Shown here piece by piece: positions 4,644 through 26,109 of a stretch of DNA of 38,040 bases. Each line of letters begins with the position of its first letter. Position 1 is the first letter of the stretch. The stretch is from Gryganskiella cystojenkinii (taxonomy: Eukaryota; Mortierellomycota; Mortierellomycetes; Mortierellales; Mortierellaceae): positions 1-38,040 of the forward strand of contig JAAAIG010000308.1 of NCBI GenBank assembly GCA_015852425.1. The letters run 5' to 3'. Position numbers and translations under genes: made by a program. A model generated the notes under the pieces. It was not told where the DNA came from. It worked only from the letters and a program-made list of their open reading frames with translations, and ran no database searches.

Positions 4644-6656
4644 TTATGCTGTAGTGGTATCATCAATCACCTCTGTCTCTCCTTCTCCTTCTTCCGCCCC
4701 TTCTTCCTTCTCCTCGTCGTCCCCGAAATCAAATCCAAAACTAAATCCGCCTGAAGATCCAGCATTCTCGGCCCCACGTTCTGAAGTAGTACCATCCGTG
4801 GCTGTCGCGAGGGCACCGTCTGATCCAGCACCGAGCTTGGCTTGTTCCCAGAACGAAAGTGGTTCTGGTCCGTCAAGAGCCTCCTCGCCATTCGTGACAC
4901 CTTTGCATCTCTTGATCGATCTTGAAAGTCGCTCAATTTCCTCTTCGTTCTCGATCCAGAGCGCCATTAACAGCTTCCGCTTCTCGATTTCTGACTCGGT
5001 CAATGCTTCAGTCTCTGGAGTGACCTCAGTAGCTTCTCTTTCAATAGATTCGACGGCAGCAGCAGGAGGGGTCCAATTGCTCTTAAAAAACGCCTCCTTG
5101 AACTCTTCAAACAGACCCTCCCGCCGTTCATCAGCGACACCGGAGACTTGATCGCGCTTGAAATATAAAAACTGCATAGTCTCCTTCAGGTTTTGGGATC
5201 CGACATAGTTCTGAGTCACAGCAATACAGTCCTCCAGGTTCACGACCGCATGCCACCATCCACGAGGCACAAACATGATCTCGCCCTCACGACAGATTCC
5301 CTCCAAGGGTCGGTCCGCAGGGTTGTCAGGGAATTGAGTTGCCGCATAAAAATTACTGAACCACTCCATCAGTGAGACGGGCGACGTGACCTCGGACTCG
5401 TCTAGAAGGATTGGAGATAAAACATCATGTTAGTATTTTCTCTCTTGTACTAAGGGTCTACCACTAATAATATAAAAGGTTCACATCGATCATACCTTCG
5501 TTGGTAAAGACGCCAGGGGGCAAAATATGGGGCGGGAACATGATCCACTTCTTGGATCCAGTGATGACGGCATTCCACGCGGATGTAGCATTAGGATCCT
5601 AAGATAGCCCCCCAAAAAAAATCGAGCATTAGCATCGCAGTTCTGTGCAGTATCAACAACTTCCTATTTTTTTTTGCGACTCTCCTCTTTCTTCCAGCTT
5701 CTGGTCGTATTTACCTTGTGAAAAGTCGATCCGGATCGAGCAGGGCCAACGATTATCCAACGATAGTCGGGTCTCTTGGGCCCCATCATGCCAAAGAAGT
5801 CTTCCCGAAAGTAAACAGGGACCTCCATGTCCTTTAGGATCCCGTCGCAGCGCTCCCCGAATTTCTTGTCAAACAGGTATAACGGACTCTCGTCCTTGGT
5901 TCCCTGGGCGTATCGAAAGTAATTCTTCATCGTCATATCGACAGATTCTGCCCTCAGGATCGCCTCGGGCCAGGTCTTTAAAAAGTACTCGGTGGACCAT
6001 TTCTTCATTGCTGGCCAATGTTGGGCTCCATCCGTGATAATGACAGGTTTTCCGGGTCGTTCATATTCATCGATAAAGGACTCGGGACTCAACCCTGATC
6101 GACGATCAATGTTCTCCACGGCCACATACGGGTCCATCCCGATCGCGGCACAATAAAACGGTTGAAAGAGAACATCAGAATAAAAATTCTTCATCTTGAG
6201 TTGTTCCCGGTTTTTGAGGATCCAAGAGGGGTCGTATTTGGGATCGGATCGTTTCAGGAACGTAGCCCTCCAGGTATCGTCTTGCCATTCCCAATCACCC
6301 TTGTACCGGTCGATCAGCAGAGTCTTCCACATCTCGTCCAGGTGCGTGAGACCATAGAGAACTCTTGAGGTCGCTCCAAGCGTGAGGAGATCTTGGGGCG
6401 AGAGCAAGTTGAGTATCTCCATGACGACCTCATCCGTGAGTCGGGCGAGTCGACCAAGCGAAGGTCCTCGACAGGATCCTGTAAAGCCTGGTCGAGTGGC
6501 GTCCATGTAATAGTTACCAAGGGGTTTGATGCCCAAGGGATGTTGTAGGCCCATGACATGCTTTGTGGTCATTCTAGGTTTCTCATGACGGATAGTGAAC
6601 CTCTGCTTCTTGGCTGCAGGCTGACTCGACGATGCTGGTGGTTCGCGTGTGACCAT
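4644..6656 (-). CDS. F-box protein with JMJD6-type JmjC oxygenase domain
   Basis: Three exons (6656..5715, 5598..5496, 5401..4644) give 600 residues. An F-box occupies about residues 70-112 (L-T-D-E-V-V-M-E-I-L-N-L-L-S-P-Q-D-L and W-K-T-L). From about 185 the protein matches JMJD6: F-I-D-E-Y-E-R-P-G-K-P-V, then S-P-L-Y-L-F-D, then R-W-I-I-V-G-P-A-R-S-G-S-T-F-H-K-D-P with A-W-N following. The Fe(II) triad is His313, Asp315 and His399 (in P-R-G-W-W-H-A-V-V-N), all present, and a Lys in the G-S-K-K-W block can serve 2-oxoglutarate. It should therefore be an active 2-oxoglutarate oxygenase (lysyl hydroxylase or demethylase; substrate unknown). The F-box suggests SKP1/SCF attachment. The last 100 residues are acidic and low in complexity. 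The start ATG at 6656 sits in a good context (CCACCATGG); an in-frame ATG at 6725 would add 23 residues. Confidence 0.9.
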
Positions 6657-6816
6657 GGTGGACTGGATTGGGGGGTGGCGCAATAAGAAAGAAGAGCGAT
6701 TCGTTCTTAAACGGGGGCAATGCATTGAAAGATTTTATTTTTTTATTTTCAAAGAGTCTGTGACTTGCAAATTTGCCAAAAAAAAAAATTGGTGGCAATC
6801 CTGAAGAAAGCGTGCC

Positions 6817-9054: not shown

Positions 9055-12000
9055 TTAGTCGTCGCGATCACTCTCGTCTTCCAATCCATCATCATGATCT
9101 CGATGACGACGACTGGTGCCTTCCTCCCCTTGGTCCGAATAGTAACGATCACGCTGCTCCCGGTCCTCTGAGGAACGCTTCTTGTGCTTCTTGTGCTTCT
9201 TGCTCTTTTTGTGCTTCTTGTGTTCTTTGTGCTCTCGATGACTCTCGCGATCACCACGGTCGCGATCGCGGTCCCGGTCTTGGTCTATATCACGGTCGGA
9301 CCAATCACGCTCTCTGGATCTGGAGCGGTCCCGGTCCCTGTCTCGTTCACGTTCACGACCACGATCACGGCCCCTGTCATGTTCACGATCGCGATCGCGA
9401 TCACGGTCTCTGTCTCGGCTATCACGGTGTTCCATGTGACGAGAAGACGAACCAGGACTGGATTTGTGTGAGCGGTGACCACTGCTGCTACTTTGGTGGT
9501 TTCGGTGCTCCTTTCGAGAAGAGGACGAGGGAGATCCATACTCGTCCGAATAAGACCGCTCTGTCTTTCGCTTCTTACTGCTACTGGAACTCGATCGTCT
9601 ATCTCGGTCATCATCCTCATCACTGCCGTCCGAGCTATCGACCTCAGCCTCCTCATACAAACGACGCTTCTTCTTCTGGGAATCAGAATCGTAACGAGTC
9701 GATTGAGAACCAGTTGGAGGTAATGGAGGCGACATCAAATGAGGTGCCTGGAGACGGATCGGGATCGGACCCGAGGGTTGAGAGGATGATCGGTCATCAT
9801 CCTCTTCATCTTCAGGATCCGAAAGATCACTTCCGCTAGACACATCCTGCTTGCGGCCATGTTTGCTGCTATTACTGGAATGGTGGTGATGACTCTTGGA
9901 CGAGGGCGAGGCTGCAGCAAACGTCGCGCTTTGGTGACTGGCAGGGGTCGTGTTGGCTGAGGCGGATCCGTACTTGTGACTAGAGGGCGCCGCGACCTTG
10001 CGTAAGGGTGTAGGAGCAGGCGTAGAAGAACCACGACGGCCTTGTTGATGGTGAGGTGACAGAGGGGAAGAGACTCCAGGCACAGTAACCGTCGAGGATG
10101 AAGGGATATAGGCAGGAACCAACTTTGCAGTCGAAGAGCTAGACTTTGGAGATGCAGTGACTCCCTTCTTGGGTGTCGTCGCCGCAGGTGAATCTGCCTT
10201 GAGTTTCGCACTGGCGCTGCTGGAGCCAACGGACGGAGATGATGCTGAAGACGACGACATCGCAGCAGCAGCGGGCTTTGGGTTCAACAGCCCCTCCTTC
10301 TTGGCAATGCCTTCCCAGTGCTTCTTCAGTCTCTCGCCCATGAGTGCAACAGCATCGCCAGGATGCGAATTGAACAAGGCGCAGTTGGAGAAAATTAGGT
10401 ACACGTCCTTGATGACTTGTTCTCCAGACTGATATCCTCCCTCTATCAGCTTCTTCTCGATCGTACCAAAGTCCATAGGGTTCTTGATGATGGAAGGGTA
10501 TGTCGGGATACCAAGCGCGATCGGGTCCACCGGTACGGCAAACACACCAAAGTCAACATGGTTCTTCAGTCGGTCAATGATCTTGAGGTGCGCGCTAAGC
10601 TCTTCGTTATTGACACTCTTGGCTTTGTTCGAGCCACCAGCACCGCTGGAGGTACCGCCCGTACCCGAAGAGGACAAGGTAAGGCTGGTCGGGTAGAGCT
10701 TTAGCAGTTCTTTTTTGGCACTTTCAACATCCTTATTGAGCATGGTGCGGATCGCTACCGCTCCAATCGAGAACGGATGATCAAGTCCGTTAAAGTTGAC
10801 ACAGTTCTGACACACCAGTCGAGCGTCGTCGGCGAATTTGTCCAGCGTCGAGTATTCACCCGCTTTTAACTTGGTCTTCATGGTTCCAAAGTCCATGGGA
10901 CTCTGGATCAAGACTGGATAGCTCGGCAGGTTCAAGGCTTTCCAATCCACCTATAAATCGACACAAGTCAAGAAAAAGGAGTATGTGTAAGAATTGAGTG
11001 GGGAAACAAACGGTATACGGCTGCACAACAAGGTATGACACGTACAGGATGCAGGAACGGTCCTGCGCTCTTATGCGCCGAAATCTTCTTCAGCATTTTC
11101 TCCATGTGCTTTTCCAAAACGTCCTTGGGTGGTTCAACGGCCTTTCCTGGCTTGGGCTTTGTAGAATTCAAAGAGGGTCGTCTTGCTCCAGCGCTGCCAC
11201 TGTTGTAGCCACCGCTGCCAGAGCTAGACGCGCCTACATTGCCACCAGTGCCAGTTGCCTCCTCCGGTTTTCCAGCCTTGCTCTTTGCTTTAGCCGCACT
11301 GCCACCGCCGCTGATCGAAGAGGGCGCAGCACCGTTGGCAAGATTAGCCGACGATTTAACACCGTTGCCTCCATGGTTTCCACCAATGGTCCCAAATATT
11401 GTCTCCCATTCCTTCCACATCAGCTTTTCGAGCTTCTCCGCTTGCTCACAGACATAAGAGCCCGCCGGATTGAACGTACGGCAGTTAGAGACGACCAGCT
11501 CAATAGCCTTCCGCACCTCATCCGCGTTCGCAAATTGGTTGTTTTCCTTGGGGTGGATGAGTTTCTTGTTAATGGTGCCGAGATCCATTGGAATGGCGAT
11601 GATAGTAGGATAATGAGGAATTCCCTGTGCGATCGGATCCACTGGCTGCAAGAACTCGAACGAACAAGGGTCTGCCATCAGGTTCTTGAGGACCTTTTTG
11701 CACTTTGTCAGCTCGGGAGGCTTGAGTTTTGGCGTGAACGGTGCTGTTGAAGAACCACTGGAAGCGTGTGACGAGGGCACTTTGTCCTTTTGCAGATTAG
11801 GGGCCACGGGAAGCAGAGGAGGTGCAGGTGAGGCAACACGACCCAAAGGAACCGAGGGCGGAACGTACGCAGGAACAGGGGATGCTTTTGATGCGGACGA
11901 CTTCTTGGGAACTAGAGCTGGTACCAAAGAGTCAGCCTTGGACACCACCTGCTGCGACGTCGCGCTTGGAGTGTGTCTAGCAGTTGATTGTGTTGCCAAA

Positions 12001-15000
12001 GCCGGACTGCTCGATCCCTTGGGTGTTTCCACGATAGTGATGTTGACTTCTGGGACTTTGGCGCCGACACTGTCCAGGACTCCGATCCACTCCCTCTCAA
12101 ACACGGTCTCCAACTCCTGCCCTTCGTTGTAGACATAGGAAGCGACTTGGTTGAACTTGAAGCAGTTGTTGATCATGAGTCGAACATCGTCCTCAAATGC
12201 TTGCAGAGAGCCATAGGCTCCTTGCTCCATTTTGGTCCTGATTGTATTCAAATCCATGGGACTGGTCACAACCTTTGGGTATTCTGGGATTTTTTCTGCA
12301 ACCGGGTCTACAGGCATACGGAAGTGTTCCGACGACTTGTGGGTCCACATCTTTCGCCAGACCCTGCGGCACTGTTTTAAATGCTCCGTCGGCATCGGCG
12401 GCACCGCTTTTTTGAATTGCACCTCAGCCGGCACTTTGGTTGGTGTGGAGGTCGCTAATGTCGAGGGAGTGGTCACATCCTTGATCGAAACAGGAGGAGG
12501 AAGCGAGACATCTTTAGGAACTGGCACAGATTTCGACTTGTGTTCCGCCTTTTTGTTAGGTGACTTTGGTGCTTTGGGCTCAGCTGGCATTCGAGGCGTG
12601 AGCTTTGGCGACATCAAAGGCTCCTGCTTGACGTGAGAAGATGAGGATTGGGCCTCAACTGGCTTCAAAGGCACGGTTGCGAGTTTGATCGAAGAAGCGG
12701 CTAATGTTCGGTAAAAGCGTTAAGTATTAATTAGTACAGTCTGCAATATGTCGCATCGTAACATTTGAAGGTCCAGTAACATAAGATGTACTCCAACTCC
12801 TACTTGGATCAAACACAGGGACCATAGCTGGAGCTTTAGGTTTAGGTGCCTTTGGAGTCTTGGGTACGTCGGGTTTTGTCTTTGGAGCCTTAGGGATCAC
12901 AGGAGCCTGAGTAGCAACGGGTGGAGAAGGGATCATTGCAGGCGCTAGCACCTGTTCGCGCGACTGCTGCATCATTGGAGAGGATGCAACAGCAGCAAGC
13001 AGGGCAGGAGCCATAGCTGGAATGGGTACCGATTGCGTGATACTGTGCACCGTCGATGTCGGCATTGTACCACCAAGAGTGAGAGGCGCCTGAGGAGACA
13101 TCGTCATTGAAACTGATAACGGATGAGGAGCGCTGTGGTCAACCATCGCCGGCGCATTGTCGATTACCATTGGCTCAGACGCGTATTCTGAGAAGCCGGG
13201 CAGAGGAGGCTCTTCCATGACGACATCGACCGTCCTATGCGCGGAGCGGAAAGCATACTTGGGAAGGATAGATGCAACCGGTGGGTAGAGAATGTCGCAG
13301 AAGAGGAGTAGGTACTTCAAGATTCTGTGCTCCAAATACGGGAACGTCGTCAGGATCCTCCAGACCTCTCGACGCAGGACTGGTTCATCTCCGTAGAGTT
13401 TCCGAATTATCTCTAAACCCTGCAGTGAATCTCCGTCTCCGCCATGGGCAGCAAACCCCACGGTCTGAACACCGTCCTCCTCCAAGATCAAGCTTTCTTG
13501 AAACTCACGATGACTGTCAAAGTCGTCTCGGGCCATCAGGACTCCGAGGAGTTCGGTCATTCCTTGCGCAAGATGGAATCGGACATAGGGAGACGGATCC
13601 TGCTCGATGATATTGCAGAGATATTCCGATGCCTTGGAGTGGTCCAAGGCGCCCAACAACAACAACGAGTCGAACGATGTCAGGCGGACGTTTATAAAGT
13701 TGCCAAATCGCGAGTGCATCATGAACGGCTTGAGATCGCGAGGAATAATTCCGGCCAACATCAGTCGCATGGTCGCTTGTAGGCAACTGACCGTCACGGT
13801 GTTGTGGTAGGTGGGGATCAAATAATCCAGAGTCCGATATCGGTCAATCTCGCGCACCGCCTGAGCCAGGATTTCTGCGCCGTCGGCCTCATCCAGTGAC
13901 TCAAACTCATCTTCATCCTCATTGCCATCCTCCTTTCGAGGCACTCGAGAATGATCTGGAATCAATGCGTGGCCAAGGGCTGAGATGAGTGTACTGACAT
14001 AATAATTGTCCGAGAATACGTTGCCAGTATTGTCATTGAAACGCAGGAGATCCAAAAGGAACTGTCGGACTTTGATAGGACAGAAGCCTTCGTCGTCTCT
14101 AATGTTCGCCAATGCTACAGGGATAGCCTACAACAAAAAATTGAAAGAATAGTGTTAGCTGATTTGTCGGTTTCATTATTCAAACAAGCAGCAATTGAAG
14201 GGTAGACTTGTTACCTTTTGAACGTAGTACTCTGCTACGCTACTAAAATCGTTCGGCTTGGGCATGCACGGGATAGTACTGTTTGGATCCTGGAAAGACG
14301 TCGTATGCATCGACGGGTAACAATACCGCTGCTGGAAAGTTTTGATCAAATGCAACAGACCGACCCAATCTGTGGAAGAACTAGCGCACTTTGCGACGCC
14401 ATAAGCAGCCTCCATTCGAACTCGGAAATAGCATCTGGTGTCTAACAGCGTTTTCAAAAGAGACGTCGAAGCTGCTGGTGATGGCATCTTGCTCAAAGCC
14501 AAAATAGCCTCATATTGCGCAACAACGTCTCTGTCTTTTTGCAACTGGGCGGCCCACATGAAGTCTGGCTGCTCGAATTGAAGTTCGCACAGCCATTCAA
14601 ACTCGGCGTCAAGTCGGATCCATTCGAACGTGGCACTGATAGCTCCAAGTTCGTCGTCCTGACCCCACTCGACAACTTGCCACTCTTCCTTCTCTTTCTC
14701 GTTTTCCCAGAGTCCAGCTCCGAATCCGAGAGCACCAAGGCCTTCTTCAACGTCACCTTCCTCCTCGGCCTCTCTTGCGGCAGCAGCTGCTGCTGCTTGT
14801 TTGGCCTGGAATCGTTTCGTGTTTCGTCGAATACGCTTGTACTTTGTGTTGAACTGAACCTCGAACCTCTTGAATGCGTCTTGGATGTCGAGAACGTGTT
14901 CGTAGGGAGTACCATCAGCTTCATGAATCCGAGCTGTCATGGTTCCTGTGAAGAGCGTCGGCGGGGGATGCTCGCCGTTCGCTGTTTGCCGTAATCGGTC

Positions 15001-17325
15001 TCCGTTGGTGGATTTTTGCTGCATGCTGATTTCGACCACCATTTTCTTGCGGTTGAAGTGATAGCTGAAGATGAAGATTGGGCACCCGCTATTGTAGATC
15101 CACTGGTCCGCGAATCCTTTGGTCTCCAATCCACTGACTTTCCGACAGATCTTTGTGAACCAATGAGTTCCAATCGCGTTATGGGCGAGCTCTCCGCTCA
15201 TGACCGAAACCAGGATCTTGGGGATAACTCGAGAAAGCCCAAGAGAGGACCCGCCTTTCGACATGCGCTTGTCAAGCATGTGCAAGACCAGTGGCGCCTT
15301 CAGTCCAATAAACTCGAGGTCATCCAGATCGATTGGGTATGCGATATTGAGGTTATAGAGAGGTGGGCGGTTCCTGTCCATGGCACAGCAACGCTCGACG
15401 TCCTTCTTCATCCTGAATCGATACTCGTTGTTTCCAAACATCTTTTTGAGGAACAGCGACGAGACGTAGTTTGTGAGACCGACAATCACCCAGATATCAG
15501 GCCAGGACTTTGGAACGATGTGGATTCCAAACCACTGTTGAGCCAAAGACTGTGTGAGCAACTTTCTTGACTCGTAGACCTGATCGATTACATCCTCGGG
15601 ATGGAGCAGCGAAGTACTGCAGACGGCCATGGTTGCAGAGGTGAAGGTTGGTGCCCAGGCATCCTCGACAAAGACCATCTTGTACGACGCGAATGGGTAA
15701 GATCCGATCTCATGCATAAAGAACTCCATGGCCTTGACCATAAAGGCGCAGGTGTGCCGCAGTTCAGGAAGCCGTTTTGGTGGACAAAATGCAAAAATGT
15801 CTGGTATTGGTCCGCGAAGATGTGCTGGTGTCTTTGGCGCTTTTTCCTTTTCGTCTTCATCGTCATCGCCAGCATCCTCATCCTCTGCATCTCCGTGATC
15901 TGGCATCGTATAGTCCTGAAGATTCAGCTTGATCACCTCAAAGACACCAGCTACAAAGGAGATGGACGCCGCTGGAGTCGGTACTTGGATACTGTAGTGG
16001 AAGACACTCTTTCCAGGGATGGACGGATGTGTCGTTTGTTGAACAAGATCGCCACTGCAGATGACTTGCACTTTCTCGTCGTCGTCATAGTCGTCCGCGG
16101 ACCACTCATCATCTTCGGGATCAATCTCTTCGCCAGGGGCATAGGATGGGACGATAAAGTCAATATCCCAAGTACATCTCTCTGCCAATCGATCCAAACA
16201 AGGAAGCCACAGGCGTGTTGCGCCGGGTAGAGGCTGGTTGATGGTATATACAGTGTGTGCTCTCTAATAGAAATTGGAAACATAGCGTTAGAAGACTGCC
16301 CAGCTGATACATGTCGTTATGTTGCCGCCAATGTTTTCAAGTAAAATAAAAAAAGGTCGTACGTTGGGAGCATTGACAGGGTCCGGCCCTGCAAAAAATA
16401 CACCTGCAGTAGGTCCCTCCAGTTTGAAATCGATTCGGACAGTCAAAGTAGCAAATGTTACACCACTGGAGAGAACTGGAGGAGCTGCAGGTGTTTGTGG
16501 CGTCGAGGGTTCTGGTGTCGCTGCGTCTGTTGTTGTTGAGAAATCATAAAGGTTAGACATCTGTTAAATAGAATAACCCATTCTTCTAAATAAAATAAAT
16601 GTGACCGACAGTTACCTTTTACCGTGTCTACTACATTAGATGCCCTGTTGATGGTGTCCTCGTCGAGCTGGAAAAAAAAAAGTTAGAGAACAAAATCTGA
16701 TCGTGAGAACTCCAAGGTCCAGCCGGATGAAGACAAACTCCACGGTCCTATTTTTTTTTGAATTTGGACTCTAGCACATACCATGCTCGGTACGACCATG
16801 CCCTTGGGGATAGTAATCGCCAGTTCTCCTTCGTCGTCCTCTGCTGTTGCCATGGACCATCTTTGTTTGAGATCCGGGTGATTGTTGACACTACCCTCTT
16901 TCAGCAGCGATAACGACTCTTTGATCGAGTCCTGATACGTGAAGTTGCAGGTGACTGAGTTGATCGATACCGCAGTGACAACTAGTAAGAAAATAACCGG
17001 GCATCCAAACAAGAGTTAGCATTTCGTGTGCTGAGTCACCGCGCATTGCACAATGACCTTTCCACAGCTACTATCATAACCATACCGCTCTGACGACAGT
17101 TGATGTGGAGTGTTGAGAGATCCTCGACCAATGGTAATATGTACAGCTCGGTTGAACCCTGTCCGTAGAGAAAACGAAGAAAGATAATGTTACTCTTCCG
17201 TGACTATTGCTTCATTCCAGTCATTATGATGCTTTGCTTCATCCCACTGTAGCCAGTGTATCCTATCGTCCCATACCAGTAGGGTTTCCTTGCAGAAGTC
17301 GACATCAATGACGACCTTTTGGTGA
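9055..17325 (-). CDS. TAF2: TFIID subunit TAF2 fused to four bromodomains and a KH/RD-rich tail
   Basis: Nine exons were traced: 17325..17277, 17158..17086, 16981..16782, 16667..16623, 16560..16363, 16263..14215, 14127..12804, 12700..11046, 10950..9055. They give 2495 residues, numbered from the first supported residue. The first ~1130 residues are TAF2, the TFIID subunit that binds core-promoter initiator DNA. Family marks are H-Q-K-V-V-I-D-V-D-F, R-L-W-L-P-C-L-D, C-T-W-D-I-D-F, then Q-P-D-F-M-W, E-R/K-D-V-V-A-Q-Y-E-A-I-L-A-L and F-S-D-N-Y-Y. The M1-aminopeptidase zinc site is gone: HEXXH reads Q-S-L-A-Q (426-430). After a Pro/Ala-rich linker come four bromodomains (about 1418-1517, 1642-1748, 1839-1949, 1982-2080), each with a P-V-D shelf, a P-M-D-L/F block and the ligand-binding Asn in N-C-x-x-F-N. 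A Ser-rich linker and a K-H/R-D tail end the protein. Usual TAF2 is ~1200-1400 residues. The start codon is unresolved: no in-frame ATG is visible upstream, so the 5' limit is only the first conserved exon. Confidence 0.9.
9058..9438 (-). repeat. RD/RE dipeptide and KH-rich tail at the TAF2 C-terminus
   Basis: The last 127 residues are almost all charged. They start with alternating Arg-Asp/Arg-Glu dipeptides and a few Arg-Ser steps, then a cluster built on K-K-H-K-K, then an acidic end. Animal TAF2 also ends in a His/Lys cluster, so the basic tail may be ancestral, with the bromodomains placed between it and the TAF2 body. Confidence 0.8.
10303..10599 (-). other. Bromodomain 4 of the TAF2 fusion
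   Basis: F-A-V-P-V-D-P shelf, N-P-M-D-F-G-T-I-E-K-K-L block, conserved Asn in S-N-C-A-L-F-N. It is followed by an Ala/Ser/Pro-rich, presumably disordered linker. Confidence 0.88.
10696..11123 (-). other. Bromodomain 3 of the TAF2 fusion (split by an intron)
   Basis: The domain is interrupted by the intron 10951..11045, which falls inside the shelf (F-L-H-P | V-D-W). It continues with S-P-M-D-F-G-T-M-K-T-K-L and the conserved Asn in Q-N-C-V-N-F-N. The join is phase 0, and the domain is only whole if the two exons are spliced, which supports the gene model. Confidence 0.86.
11394..11714 (-). other. Bromodomain 2 of the TAF2 fusion
   Basis: F-L-Q-P-V-D-P shelf, I-P-M-D-L-G-T-I-N-K-K-L block, and the conserved Asn in S-N-C-R-T-F-N. 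It is followed by a Gly/Ser/Ala/Lys-rich linker. Confidence 0.88.
12087..12386 (-). other. Bromodomain 1 of the TAF2 fusion
   Basis: About 100 residues. The shelf reads F-R-M-P-V-D-P, the ZA loop ends in Y-P-K-V-V-T-S-P-M-D-L, and the ligand-binding Asn is in N-N-C-F-K-F-N. It lies in the exon that begins right after the phase-1 intron at 12701-12803, which joins it to the TAF2 body. Confidence 0.88.
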
Positions 17326-17948
17326 CTTGTGCATGACCCGAAAAAAACAAATAAAAGAGAAGCAAAGAGATGGATGTTAGTCTTTGACTAGTCCTTCAAA
17401 TCGAGGTCGATCGCGTCCAGACAAAAGGTGGTGTGTTGTGTAGACTTATAATGTATGTGTCTTGGTGTTTGTCTCTCCTTTTTGCATGATGGAGTCTTGT
17501 TTGTGGCTTTAAACAGGGTTTCGCTGATGACAAGGCTTTGAATGGAAAGAAAAAAGTGTGGTCGATGCCAGGTACCAGGGATCCTGGTCTTTTTCAGGGC
17601 GATTCCTCGACAAAGAACGGCGGTCTTTGTGTTTCCCAATGCGACAGAGAGGTTCCCTGTGAACAAAAAGAGTGTCTGTTTGGCAGGGACTAGGGATAGG
17701 TTTCGAGATTGTTTGCTTTTTTTGGATGGATGGCACTGTCGTACGAATGACACGCGTTGTGTTTGAGAATGTGAAAAGATATAATGATACAAGGAAAGAT
17801 TGGACAAGCTGGGCGGATAAATGAAAGAAGAACAGTGCTGTGCTGTGTGAGGAGTAGGAGAAGAGGGCGTCCGTTCCTGTAATCTGTTCCCGAGCAGACA
17901 ATGTGAACTGGTGTGTTGCAAAGAGGTGGAAATGAGCCAATGCTGCAA

Positions 17949-17956: not shown

Positions 17957-18159
17957 CTTGGTCAAGTGCGCAGCACTTAAGTTGGTGGCTTAGACCTTTA
18001 AGAATAAACAAGCATGTTGCATGAAGAAGGAGCATTCATTCATTCATTTCTTTTTCGTTTTCTGTACTTTACGCAAAAAAAGTCACTCCAACGGGACAGG
18101 ACATTTCATATCCATAGACACGCAGCAACGAACAACTCACAGCAGCAGCAACTTTCATT

Positions 18160-18185
<26 letters not shown>
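18160..18185 (+). repeat. (CA)n microsatellite in the RRP40 leader
   Basis: About 13 CA units, 27 nt before the RRP40 ATG, continuing as an imperfect ACAT/ACAC tract. A (CATT)4 tract lies ~110 nt further upstream. Confidence 0.9.
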
Positions 18186-18190
<5 letters not shown>

Positions 18191-18212
18191 ATATACGACA
18201 ACAGATCTCATA

Positions 18213-19140
18213 ATGTCGTCAACAGTCGCAGAAGAATCGCGTGACAGTCTACAGATCGTCCTCCCTGGAGACCTCTTGCCAGCAACAGACTCAAGTCTCC
18301 TCCACGACTCGGCCTCTGCTCCTGTCATCAAACTCGGACCAGGCCTTCAGCCCTTGCAAGACGACACCATTGCTGCGGTGAAGGCTGGAGTATTAAAGCA
18401 TGCTGAGGTTGGAAACCGTTGGTGGGTCGAGAGCAATCAACGGAGGGTAAGCTCGACTCTTTTTATTCGTTCTTGATTCCAAGATCATGAGCCCGACCAA
18501 GCCCTCTTCTTGATACTAACATACTCCCTACTTTTTATATCTAGTATGTGGCGGCAGCAGGAGAGTCTGTGATCGGCGTCGTTGTTGGAAAGACAGTGGA
18601 ACATTACAAGATCGATATCGGAGCGGCTCAGACGGCGTTGTTGGGAGTGCTTGCCTTCGAGGGCGCCTCAAAGCGTAACAAGCCCAACCATGAGGTAAGC
18701 TTCAGAGGTCAAAGGAACTATTGTTTGTGCAAGAGCTCATGAATTCAGATGGCTAAAAAACGTTTTTCTCCTCTCTCGAATAGATTGGCGCGCTTCTCTA
18801 CTGCCGGATCTCACTCGCGAACAAGGACATGGAGGCTGAACTCGAGTGCATGAACCCAACAACAGGAAAGGCTGATGGCTATGGTGATCTCAAGGGAGGA
18901 TTTGTCTTCAAGACATCCTTGGGATTGGCGCGTCGGTTATTGGACCCCAAGACCTTGATCCTGCGTTTGCTGGGTCAACATATCCCCTTTGAGACTGCCG
19001 TCGGTATGAACGGCAAGGTCTGGATCAACTCTGCAAACGCAAAACACACAATCCTGATTTGCAATGCTATCAAGAACTCTGAATTCCTCAGCCAAGAAGA
19101 GTGTGTAACAATGGTGAAGGGTTTGGTCGATAGATTATAA
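18213..19140 (+). CDS. RRP40: RNA exosome cap subunit RRP40 (EXOSC3)
   Basis: Three exons (18213..18446, 18545..18694, 18784..19140) in phase 0 give 246 residues, close to yeast Rrp40 (~240). It is one of the three S1/KH cap proteins that gate RNA entry into the nuclear and cytoplasmic exosome. The N-terminal part has V-L-P-G-D-L and W-W-V-E-S. An S1-type block starts R-R-Y-V-A-A-A-G-E-S-V-I-G-V-V-V-G-K. The C-terminal KH part carries G-M-N-G-K-V-W-I-N, the family hallmark, and ends near I-C-N-A-I-K-N-S-E-F-L. The ATG at 18213 begins the conserved frame directly after the CA-rich leader; the same frame stays open upstream without support. The gene is divergent from TAF2 and convergent with cytochrome c. 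Confidence 0.93.
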
Positions 19141-22993: not shown

Positions 22994-23829
22994 ACTCGAG
23001 CCACTGTCCTTTTCATCAATTTCATATCCTTTCTTCCTTTCACTTTTTTTTCGCAAAAGGCCGTTTTCAACTTGTACAATATTCATTAGTTCTCTTCGTT
23101 TTTTTGTTTTCCTGTTTCATTTTCATTTTTTTTTTACTATCATATCCAGCATCAAACAACAGCGTCCCATTGACCACATTCTTTCTTCTACGACAAGCAA
23201 TTGCATATTCCTCGTAGTAAAGAGTAGAAAGACTCACAAATAATAATGAAAACCCAAAAACACAGAAACACAAAGAAGGATTGAGGATGCCATGGGAAAA
23301 AAAGAACAAAGTCAGCCTGGCTGAAGAATCAGGCGCGAGCCGGGTTGTTGGGCTAACAATGCTTCTGTATCCCTAAAGGCGAAATAGGCATGAGAGGGAT
23401 GATGACTGGGAAAGGGAACAAGGTCGAGCATACAGTATCAGGAGTAAAAACGTGAACGCGAGAGCGATTTGCCGAGCTTTGGTGCTATCTGGGTCTTTTT
23501 ATTCCCAAAAGTGGAACCCTAGCCTCCCTTGGCAAACTCTCTTTGGAGCTCTCTGTTTTTTCCACAAAGCACAAACACCCCTGCTTTTGTCACTCTCTCT
23601 GGATCAGGACCCCGCCTCACTCCACGCAGGCACAGGGCAAAGGACGGGAGTCAGGAGACCATAGGACCCTTGACTTCAAAAAAGTCGGCATCCATCCTTT
23701 TTGCTTTCAAAGTGATTGACATCCTCCTCTCTTTCTTCATTCAATCCTCAGCTCCAGTCACTCTCTCAAAATCGACATCATTTCCATTACCATCTCTTTA
23801 AGTGCGCTTTATCCTCCCTCCCCGGTCTG
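22994..23829. other. Intergenic between CTP synthase and the PDH phosphatase gene
   Basis: Contains the T-rich 3' flank of CTP synthase and a pyrimidine-rich leader before the ATG at 23830. The phosphatase frame stays open upstream to about 23716 but has no ATG there. No other gene or structured RNA is seen. Confidence 0.45.
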
Positions 23830-26109
23830 ATGTCGCTCCGGCTCTCGGCTCTCCAGTCCCTGACCCGCTATCCTCGGTCAGGAACGTTGACTGGTCTCCA
23901 AAGAACAAGCGGAGGAGTGTCATTCTTTTCCACCTCCATCCCTCCTCATAACCGCATCCGTCCGACCTTGACCGTCAGTCGTCCCAAACGCACACATCCA
24001 ACAACTACAACAACATCCACTTCAACTCCTCCACATCAGCAGACAAAGCAGGAGGTTTTGCCACCAAACTCATCTACTACTCATCCCTCATCCACCTCAA
24101 GCTCACCAGTCAGTCGCATCACCCCACTCAGACCCACCGACGCCCTGAAAAACGGTCATCCCAAAAACGAACCACAGCATCGTCATCAACAACAACGGGA
24201 CCCTCGCTCTCAACAAAACCGTGACCCTCGTCAGTCTGGAGGACGATTCAACCCTTGGTTACATCACCTCGTCGAGAACCGTCGAAACGCTATCCGAGCC
24301 TTTGTCTTTGGAACCATTCTGTCCGGAACTGCAATCGGTGTCTACAACCTTGCGTTCTCGAAGAGTCCAGTTGCGGCCGGTTGGCAACAACTTCAACAGG
24401 ATTTTATGGCCGTTGCTCGCGCGTCTTTGACTCAATCCATCACCCCATCTGATCCCTCACCAGCAGCAGCAGCTTTGAGCAATACCAGTCGATCCTTCTC
24501 CAGTGGTCCTGCCGAGAGCCCCTTTACCATCGGACGATTCGAAAAGAAGATCAAGATGCTGTCATCCGAACAAGTGGAAGAACGTCTGGCTCACAACCAG
24601 AGATCCTTCAAGATCTCACCCGATGCAGTAGCGACACGCAAGGACAAACCAAACCAAGATCTGATCCTTGGCTATTGTATCAACCAGGTCGCATCCAACA
24701 ACCCGGTCGAGGACGATCTATCTGCGCATGTGATCCGAGGCAAGGACGGAACGATTGACAAGGTCTTTTTCGGCATCTTTGATGGTCACGGTGGCTGGTG
24801 CTGTTCTCAAAAGGTCGCTCAGGAATTAGCCCCGACGGTTGCAACAGAACTAGATGCGGTCAAGGAACGTCACGATATCATGGCCATCATGGAGGCGATC
24901 GAAAATGGGTTCTTGAAACTGGATGACAAGATTGTGAACCAGACTGTTCAGACTGTCCTCGAGTTTCCCTCAAGACCCCTGGCCTGTTCGAGTCTCTTGC
25001 CTGCGATCGCAGGATCGTGCGCACTTCTGGCCTATGTGGATGCAAAGGAGAAGGATCTCTATGTGGCTTGTACTGGTGACAGTCGTGCAGTTATGGGTGT
25101 CTATGAAACTTCGGCCACGGGTGGTCATTCCTGGAAGGCTGTACCCTTGTCGTTTGACCAAACTGGCAGGAACCGATGGGAGGTTCGAAGGCTTCAAGAG
25201 GAGCATCCTGGTGAAGAAAACACTGTCGTCATGCGAGGTCGTGTTCTCGGTGGTCTTGGTAGGTTGGGAGTGGCTTTCGATCTTCTTTTTTTTTTTTTGT
25301 CAACAGTTAATTATGAAGCCTAACAGCATATTGCACGTCTTTGATTAGAACCAACTCGTGCCTTTGGAGATGCTCGTTACAAGTGGTCCAAGGAGATCCA
25401 GGAACGAGTCTTCCAACTCTTCCCCTCTTATCGCCAACCGCACCGCAACTACCATACACCACCCTATGTCACGGCAAAGCCTGTGGTGAAGCATCACAAG
25501 ATTCGCCCCGAGGATCGGTTCTTGGTTATGGCTACGGATGGTCTCTGGGATAAGTTGACGTCCGAGGAGGTTGTCCAGTTGGTTGGAGATTTACTCGATG
25601 GCAAAAAGGGTGAAGAGAAAGTGGTCCTGAACCGGGAAGAGCTTGGCTTGATCAAGAGCAAGATCCAGACCCTCAAAGGCGTGATCACTGGCAAGAAGGA
25701 GGATCAGAACGAGGAAAGCCAGGAGTTGACACCCGCAAACTTGCCACCCAAGGGACCCGCAAGTCAGATCCGTCAGTTCACATTCAAGGATCCCTCGAAT
25801 GCCTCGACTCACTTGGTTCGAAACGCTCTCGGCGGAGGCAATGAGGACAAATTGGCGGCAACACTTTCGATCCCTTCACCCATGAGCAGAGTTTACCGAG
25901 ATGATATCACAGGTATAGAGCTTGACACATTTATTCTTTGTGGGCTTTTATGAGGATGTTTTGTACGCAAACGTGTAAAGCTAACACGCTCTCTTTTTGT
26001 TTCTTTTTTTTTTTATAAAAAAGTCACCGTGATCTTCTTTGGTCATCAAGATACCAAGGTGGCATTGTCGAGCGCGCAGAACAACGATGGACTTGTAGAC
26101 ATTATTTAG
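23830..26109 (+). CDS. PTC5: Mitochondrial pyruvate dehydrogenase phosphatase, PP2C family
   Basis: Three exons (23830..25258, 25349..25912, 26024..26109) give 692 residues. It is a metal-dependent (PPM/PP2C) phosphatase expected to dephosphorylate and activate the E1-alpha subunit of pyruvate dehydrogenase. The N-terminus is Arg/Ser/Thr-rich like a mitochondrial presequence. A long Thr/Pro/Gln-rich stretch follows, then one membrane segment at about 155-176, an arrangement known for Ptc5. The catalytic motifs are all there: F-G-I-F-D-G-H-G-G (Asp318), C-T-G-D-S-R-A, R-A-F-G-D, A-T-D-G-L-W-D and a C-terminal R-D-D-I-T-V-T-V. A Glu/Lys insert of ~60 residues before the C-terminus is usual for PDP-type members. 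The symbol is by domain layout. Confidence 0.9.

Follow-up and report, generated by a model that had tools for sequence, protein, structure and literature searches.

Does the TFIID subunit TAF2 carry bromodomains in a fungus, and has the acetyl-lysine reader moved there from another subunit? In animals, acetyl-lysine reading by TFIID is usually ascribed to TAF1; in budding yeast it is ascribed to Bdf1, a separate protein. The question is raised by a locus of Gryganskiella cystojenkinii on contig JAAAIG010000308.1, of which the 38,040 nucleotides analysed are referred to as the window. A preliminary description of this DNA had read a TAF2 body and four bromodomains joined by phase-compatible introns, and the gene model agrees with it: the minus strand from 17324 to 9055 is one open spliced frame of 2,486 codons with its stop at 9057-9055, arranged in nine exons and eight GT-AG introns of 87-118 nt, with Pfam domains on both sides of the junction (Table 1). 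A candidate first coding exon lies beyond the span of 9055-17325 given in that description; it is identical at 8/13 residues to the N-terminus of a Dissophora relative (P0001; tblastn, E 0.007). Elsewhere on the minus strand of the window (4644-6734), an F-box is followed by a Cupin_8/JmjC hydroxylase domain split over two frames, which together are probably one gene.

Table 1. Features of the TAF2 locus and its neighbours, in window coordinates
Feature	Position	Strand	Basis and detail
Candidate first coding exon, MQKGETNTKTHTL	17449..17487	minus	tblastn with N-terminus of relative P0001; ATG at 17487
Exons of the model	17324-17277, 17158-17086, 16981-16782, 16667-16616, 16526-16363, 16263-14215, 14127-12804, 12700-11046, 10950-9055	minus	splice model
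TAF2 body, first six model exons and introns (M1-like, Ig-like, first part of TPR)	14128..17324	minus	splice model; Pfam PF01433, PF25316, PF25577
TAF2 exon: remaining TPR region and first part of Pro/Lys-rich linker	12804..14127	minus	PF25577 1.9e-37; linker alignable with eight relatives
Junction intron, GTAGGA...CTAAT...TTAG	12701..12803	minus	splice model; donor GTAGGA at 12803, acceptor TTAG at 12701; 103 nt, phase 1
Bromodomain 1	12063..12386	minus	PF00439; Asn 1486 at 12155-12153
Bromodomain 2	11376..11717	minus	PF00439; Asn 1713 at 11474-11472
Bromodomain 3, split by intron 11045-10951	10699..11117	minus	PF00439; Asn 1908 at 10794-10792
Bromodomain 4	10282..10605	minus	PF00439; Asn 2048 at 10374-10372
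Low-complexity basic tail with HREHKEHKKHKKSKKHKKHKKRSSED and stop, conserved in Mortierellomycota	9055..10281	minus	aligned in 6/8 relatives (those extending so far)
Rrp40 exosome subunit (neighbour)	17994-18476	plus	
CTP synthase (neighbour), no match in a plasmid search	21419-22993	plus	
PP2C phosphatase (neighbour)	23716-25323	plus	

Upstream of the junction, Pfam matches were obtained to Peptidase_M1 (PF01433, 2.6e-07), the TAF2 Ig-like domain (PF25316, 5.5e-32) and TPR_TAF2_C (PF25577, 1.9e-37 and 4.8e-19), and the scores of PF25316 and PF25577, 111.1 and 129.4 bits, lie above the cut-off of 27. Chains of solved TFIID structures were matched as well, namely Taf2 chain 6hqa_A (7.2e-135) and TFIID subunit 2 chain 30ff_DB (1,199 residues; 8.3e-90). 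TAF2 is present as a single copy, i.e. PF25577 was matched at the window locus only in an assembly of 1,050 contigs, and its body is 74-78% identical to that of relatives (eight compared, where enough residues align). Judged by these homologies, the window gene is the TAF2 of a Mortierellaceae fungus, and its membership of TFIID is predicted.

The junction between the two halves, for which a branch site and a frame restored at A|CC had been described, bears close inspection. The intron is in phase 1, a branch-like CTAAT lies 34 nt upstream of its end and the frame is restored as VFDP-A|CC-ASSIK. Its length and GC content (0.37) resemble those of neighbouring introns; its donor is slightly weaker than theirs, a judgement made by eye and not from a splice-site score. 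The junction intron is an ordinary one and is in frame. All eight Mortierellomycota relatives can be aligned on both sides of the junction, and in three of eight entries whose contigs were checked (P0046, P0070 and P0080) a single frame occupies 92-97% of the longest contig, compared with 41-82% in the other five; we infer that these three contigs are spliced messages. It is very improbable that two adjacent genes, TAF2 and a four-bromodomain protein, were wrongly merged into one, since, although the TAF2 exon frame meets a stop within the junction intron, in-frame ATGs soon follow in the downstream frame and the donor looks a little weak, the relatives are fused in all of the best 120 of 499 matches, with eight alignable on either side of the linker and three of eight checked entries being single frames that nearly fill their contigs.

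Downstream of the junction, PF00439 identifies two bromodomain stretches on each of two exons (9e-47 and 7.1e-29), and domains 1-4 reach 83.1, 74.8, 51.3 (for the larger of the exon pieces) and 57.4 bits, where the cut-off is 21.7. The exon join within bromodomain 3 is colinear with seven relatives, while the eighth, a partial model, stops there. The acetyl-lysine pocket Asn is present in 4/4 window bromodomains, as had been claimed, and across the family it is found in 426/435 TAF2 bromodomains, with the ZA-loop Tyr in 435/435. The window bromodomains are 43-76% identical to those of the eight relatives and the linkers and tail 24-45%; the bromodomains are thus more strongly conserved than the linkers. 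The protein does not have the BET arrangement, in which an ET domain (PF17035) comes after two bromodomains; the ET domain was matched on contigs C201, C937 and C348 and not on the window contig, C340. Downstream of the last bromodomain, at 9055-9220 on the minus strand, is a Mortierellomycota-conserved tail, REHKKHKKSRKHKKHKKRSSEDRD, which resembles the Lys/His-rich tail of animal TAF2.

The preliminary description treated the arrangement as a property of this one fungus, which proved too narrow: the fusion is common to Mortierellomycota, Mucoromycota and Basidiomycota. A search with the TAF2 body within the full-length protein gave 120/120 proteins, among the best 120 of 499, in which TAF2 is joined to 2-7 bromodomain matches, so the two halves are not always separate genes in relatives. 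This search admits proteins of about 1,367-4,350 aa and for that reason favours fused proteins; bromodomain-free TAF2 was taken from a second search (best 120 of 672), and TAF1 from the best 120 of 1,472, with about 8,000 candidates scored. Lineage labels were taken from source names; the 'lgn', 'ena' and 'jgi' proteins received theirs by rank in the bromodomain count. Among the matches listed, four bromodomains are found in 10/11 Mortierellomycota relatives (the eleventh is a partial model), or in 9/12 Mortierellomycota including the window protein under a stricter length rule; Mucoromycota TAF2 has four in 17/35 and six in 14/35, Basidiomycota TAF2 has three in 73/75, and ascomycete TAF2 has none. 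Five basidiomycete or basidiomycete-like TAF2 entries (P0136, P0138, P0140, P0141 and P0170), including one from Cryptococcus depauperatus, are also without bromodomains, possibly through secondary loss or truncated models. Two further entries have unusual records: P0157 is filed under the plant Salix suchowensis but has the look of a fungal TAF2, and P0017 (Bifiguratus) resembles a TAF2 model into which an unrelated gene has been merged.

Whether the reader has moved was addressed through the other TFIID-associated bromodomains of the same genome, which are not missing. Its TAF1 has a DUF3591 region, a zinc knuckle and one bromodomain, and two BET (Bdf1-like) genes (L013 and L014, on contigs C201 and C937) each encode two bromodomains and an ET domain. 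Because these are present, the reader has not gone from TAF1 in the window genome, and the earlier statement that it had moved fails there but fits the Mucoromycota and Basidiomycota examined, in which TAF1 is without a bromodomain. YEATS matches were also found on four contigs of this genome. In human TFIID, TAF2 lies in lobe C. The proposed move to another TFIID lobe is not established. In yeast, the structure has separate Taf1 and Taf2 lobes, yet its Taf1/Taf7 arm faces the Taf2-bound DNA (PMC6220335, in part), and human TAF1 is placed in lobe C (PMC11423858, in part).

Among the best 120 of 1,472 TAF1 matches, a bromodomain is present in 26 (22 Mortierellomycota, 3 Glomeromycota and 1 chytrid) and absent from 94, among them two short entries that look like Mortierellomycota (P0260 and P0261); most Mucoromycota and Basidiomycota TAF1s among the matches listed stop no further than about 120 residues from the zinc knuckle. 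Both proteins could be paired in 36 species, chosen by eye from the names in the TAF2 and TAF1 search listings. Bromodomains are on TAF2 and not on TAF1 in 31 of them (19 Mucoromycota and 12 Basidiomycota), on both in 4 Mortierellomycota, the window fungus among them, and on TAF1 only in Geosiphon. Gamsiella multidivaricata, Phycomyces blakesleeanus, Rhizopus arrhizus and Dispira parvispora, whose TAF2 entries break off in the TAF2 body or shortly past it, were excluded, and Linnemannia gamsii was paired via P0251, its second TAF1 entry (P0260) ending 120 residues past the zinc knuckle with no bromodomain. The opposite distribution of TAF1 and TAF2 bromodomains is striking, but the rows are related and represent few evolutionary events. 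Budding yeast Taf1 is without a bromodomain (PMC8266393, in part), and Ascomycota seem to lack one on either TAF1 or TAF2. Kickxellales may lack them on both, as P0353 is a TAF1 and P0198, from a different species, a TAF2 without bromodomains; P0148 and P0149 are placed by the trees not with Kickxellales but with a smut relative. Loss of the TAF1 bromodomain thus does not require bromodomains on TAF2, given the yeast and ascomycete case, to which Kickxellales may add another.

The opposite distribution might be taken to mean that the TAF2 bromodomains are TAF1 bromodomains transferred within TFIID, and the AU test does not reject a grouping of TAF2 with TAF1 bromodomains (p 0.203). The bromodomain tree is weak (110 columns), its sample beyond TAF2 being own-genome or TAF1 bromodomains only, and a second tree omits four own-genome rows of the first. 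TAF1 bromodomains nevertheless form their own clade (99/90), the TAF2 bromodomains group with own-genome BET bromodomain 2 in the second tree (92/94, not starred), and Mortierellomycota carry bromodomains on both TAF1 and TAF2. The best tree lends no support to a TAF1 origin, and such a transfer appears quite unlikely.

The reading preferred here, and held with reasonable confidence, is that the window gene encodes a TAF2 with a covalent four-bromodomain array that would anchor in TFIID and read the acetylated nucleosome, and that fungal lineages differ in how this reader is arranged. The Taf2 body keeps the yeast protein in TFIID next to promoter DNA (PMC6220335, in part) and, by homology, the TAF2 body would anchor the window protein in TFIID at the promoter. 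Given the conserved pocket residues and the analogy with TAF1 and Bdf1, the flexible bromodomain array could then bind acetylated histone tails of the adjacent nucleosome, so that TFIID would be expected to prefer acetylated promoters. In Mucoromycota and Basidiomycota the TAF2 array seems to replace the bromodomain that TAF1 has lost. The TAF2 tail of Ascomycota ends instead in a motif of the type that docks a separate reader, and Mortierellomycota keep bromodomains on both subunits. Alternatively, the fused protein is made and its bromodomains read acetylated non-histone proteins or tether TFIID to SAGA or remodellers, or its disordered tail provides crowding. The targets of a bromodomain are not readable from sequence, and the long low-complexity linkers and conserved HKKHKK tail would suit such functions; nevertheless, conservation of the pocket residues, the distribution opposite to that of TAF1 bromodomains and the example set by the TAF1 double bromodomain and Bdf1, which read histones (PMC8266393, in part), make them unlikely.

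A broader version of the histone-reading model concerns the site at which the bromodomains are attached. At its end the yeast Taf2 tail has a hydrophobic-x-hydrophobic-Lys-hydrophobic motif, to which the ET and YEATS domains of Taf14 bind (PMC9177701, in part; consensus from PMC7442819, in part). A looser hxhKh pattern, from these papers, was added after the strict pattern had missed the Glomeromycota and 8/52 Ascomycota, and both were counted against shuffles. The sets comprised 52 named Ascomycota; 66/75 Basidiomycota rows, leaving out eight without an organism name and P0192, which came from the bromodomain-free TAF2 search; 25/35 Mucoromycota, leaving out five 'partial' entries, one chimeric model, P0042, P0043, P0045 and P0099; and 7/12 Mortierellomycota, leaving out five 'partial' entries. 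Within the last 60 residues, Ascomycota TAF2 has the looser motif in 50/52 (2.8 expected from shuffles) and the strict one in 44/52 (0.5 expected), and both Glomeromycota TAF2s have the looser motif. Basidiomycota TAF2 has it in the last 60 residues in 0/66 (strict) or 4/66 (looser, 6.4 expected) and in the linker that joins bromodomain 1 to bromodomain 2 in 60/66 (expected 1.2 strict, 7.2 looser). This basidiomycete linker (P0047-P0120) contains a conserved IKLKV/IKLKI-type peptide resembling an ET-domain docking motif. At the end of Mucoromycota TAF2 the motif occurs in 1/25 (strict) or 2/25 (looser, 1.8 expected), and the looser form is present in 12/25 (3.2 expected) over the 150 residues that precede bromodomain 1, a stretch that may include folded TAF2 body. 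Two of the seven Mortierellomycota proteins have it at the very end, past the bromodomains, and the scan found no ET-type motif past residue 1120 of the window protein.

The positions of the motif across lineages suggest that the bromodomains entered beside a site that docks separate readers elsewhere, which is a pattern rather than a binding result. It is tentatively proposed that the TAF2 C-terminus is a general chromatin-reader port in fungal TFIID, at which ET/YEATS readers would be docked in Ascomycota, and bromodomains would have been built in, with those of TAF1 then dropped, in Basidiomycota and Mucoromycota; Mortierellomycota would be living intermediates, and acetyl-reading would have been handed between subunits. 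The docked-reader part is not general, because the end motif is absent from the window protein, 5/7 Mortierellomycota and, in its strict form, 24/25 Mucoromycota.

Single bromodomains are orthologous between Mortierellomycota and Mucoromycota: the third of Mortierellomycota pairs with bromodomain 5 of Mucor (100/83), and the fourth groups with bromodomain 6 of Mucor and Endogone and bromodomain 2 of Calcarisporiella (99/99), so the fusion in these two lineages predates their split. On the TAF2 body tree (28 rows) the presence of bromodomains needs three changes, so that bromodomains were either lost in Ascomycota and others or gained a second time in Basidiomycota. An independent fusion in Basidiomycota is possible, if somewhat doubtful. 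It would account for the three changes, for the grouping of basidiomycete TAF2 with bromodomain-free ascomycete TAF2, for the differences between lineages in bromodomain number and spacing and for the BET bromodomain that falls inside the TAF2 set in the free tree; against it, the AU test does not reject a single clade of all 44 TAF2 bromodomains sampled (p 0.14), and the starred support for orthologous domains makes at least the Mortierellomycota and Mucoromycota fusion common to both.

Several known systems come close to the TAF2 fusion. The C-terminal bromodomains of metazoan TAF1 are likewise covalent on a TFIID subunit, and the own-genome TAF1 keeps one; the window protein, however, carries its four on TAF2, and these are not united with the TAF1 kind in the best tree. 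Yeast Bdf1/Bdf2 likewise tie acetyl-lysine reading to TFIID, and BET bromodomain 2 is the nearest among the own-genome and TAF1 bromodomains sampled, but Bdf1 binds Taf7 as a protein of its own (PMC8266393 and PMC13373324, both in part), whereas the window readers are fused to TAF2. Taf14 on the yeast Taf2 C-terminal tail is likewise an acyl-lysine reader at this position (PMC9177701, in part), although it is a non-covalent YEATS and ET reader and the window protein is without its docking motif past residue 1120. The architecture of the window gene is shared by database entries from Mortierella, Linnemannia, Mucor, Rhizopus and many Basidiomycota. CNAG_03273, the Cryptococcus neoformans TAF2 orthologue, is mentioned in passing as matched only via the Spt7 bromodomain region (PMC12844337, in part). 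In the literature searched, which left out the main 2019 TFIID survey and so gives no ground for a claim of priority, no functional study of TAF2-bromodomain proteins was found. That survey, by Antonova et al. in Genes & Development, reportedly covers gains and losses of epigenetic readers.

Bromodomains on TAF2 constitute a third arrangement of TFIID acetyl-lysine readers, found in Mucoromycota, Basidiomycota and Mortierellomycota. As there are lineages with bromodomains on TAF1 only, on both subunits, on TAF2 only and on neither, the role of TFIID bromodomains and their hand-over between subunits can be asked about directly, and the fusion may help explain how fungi altered the reading of chromatin by TFIID.
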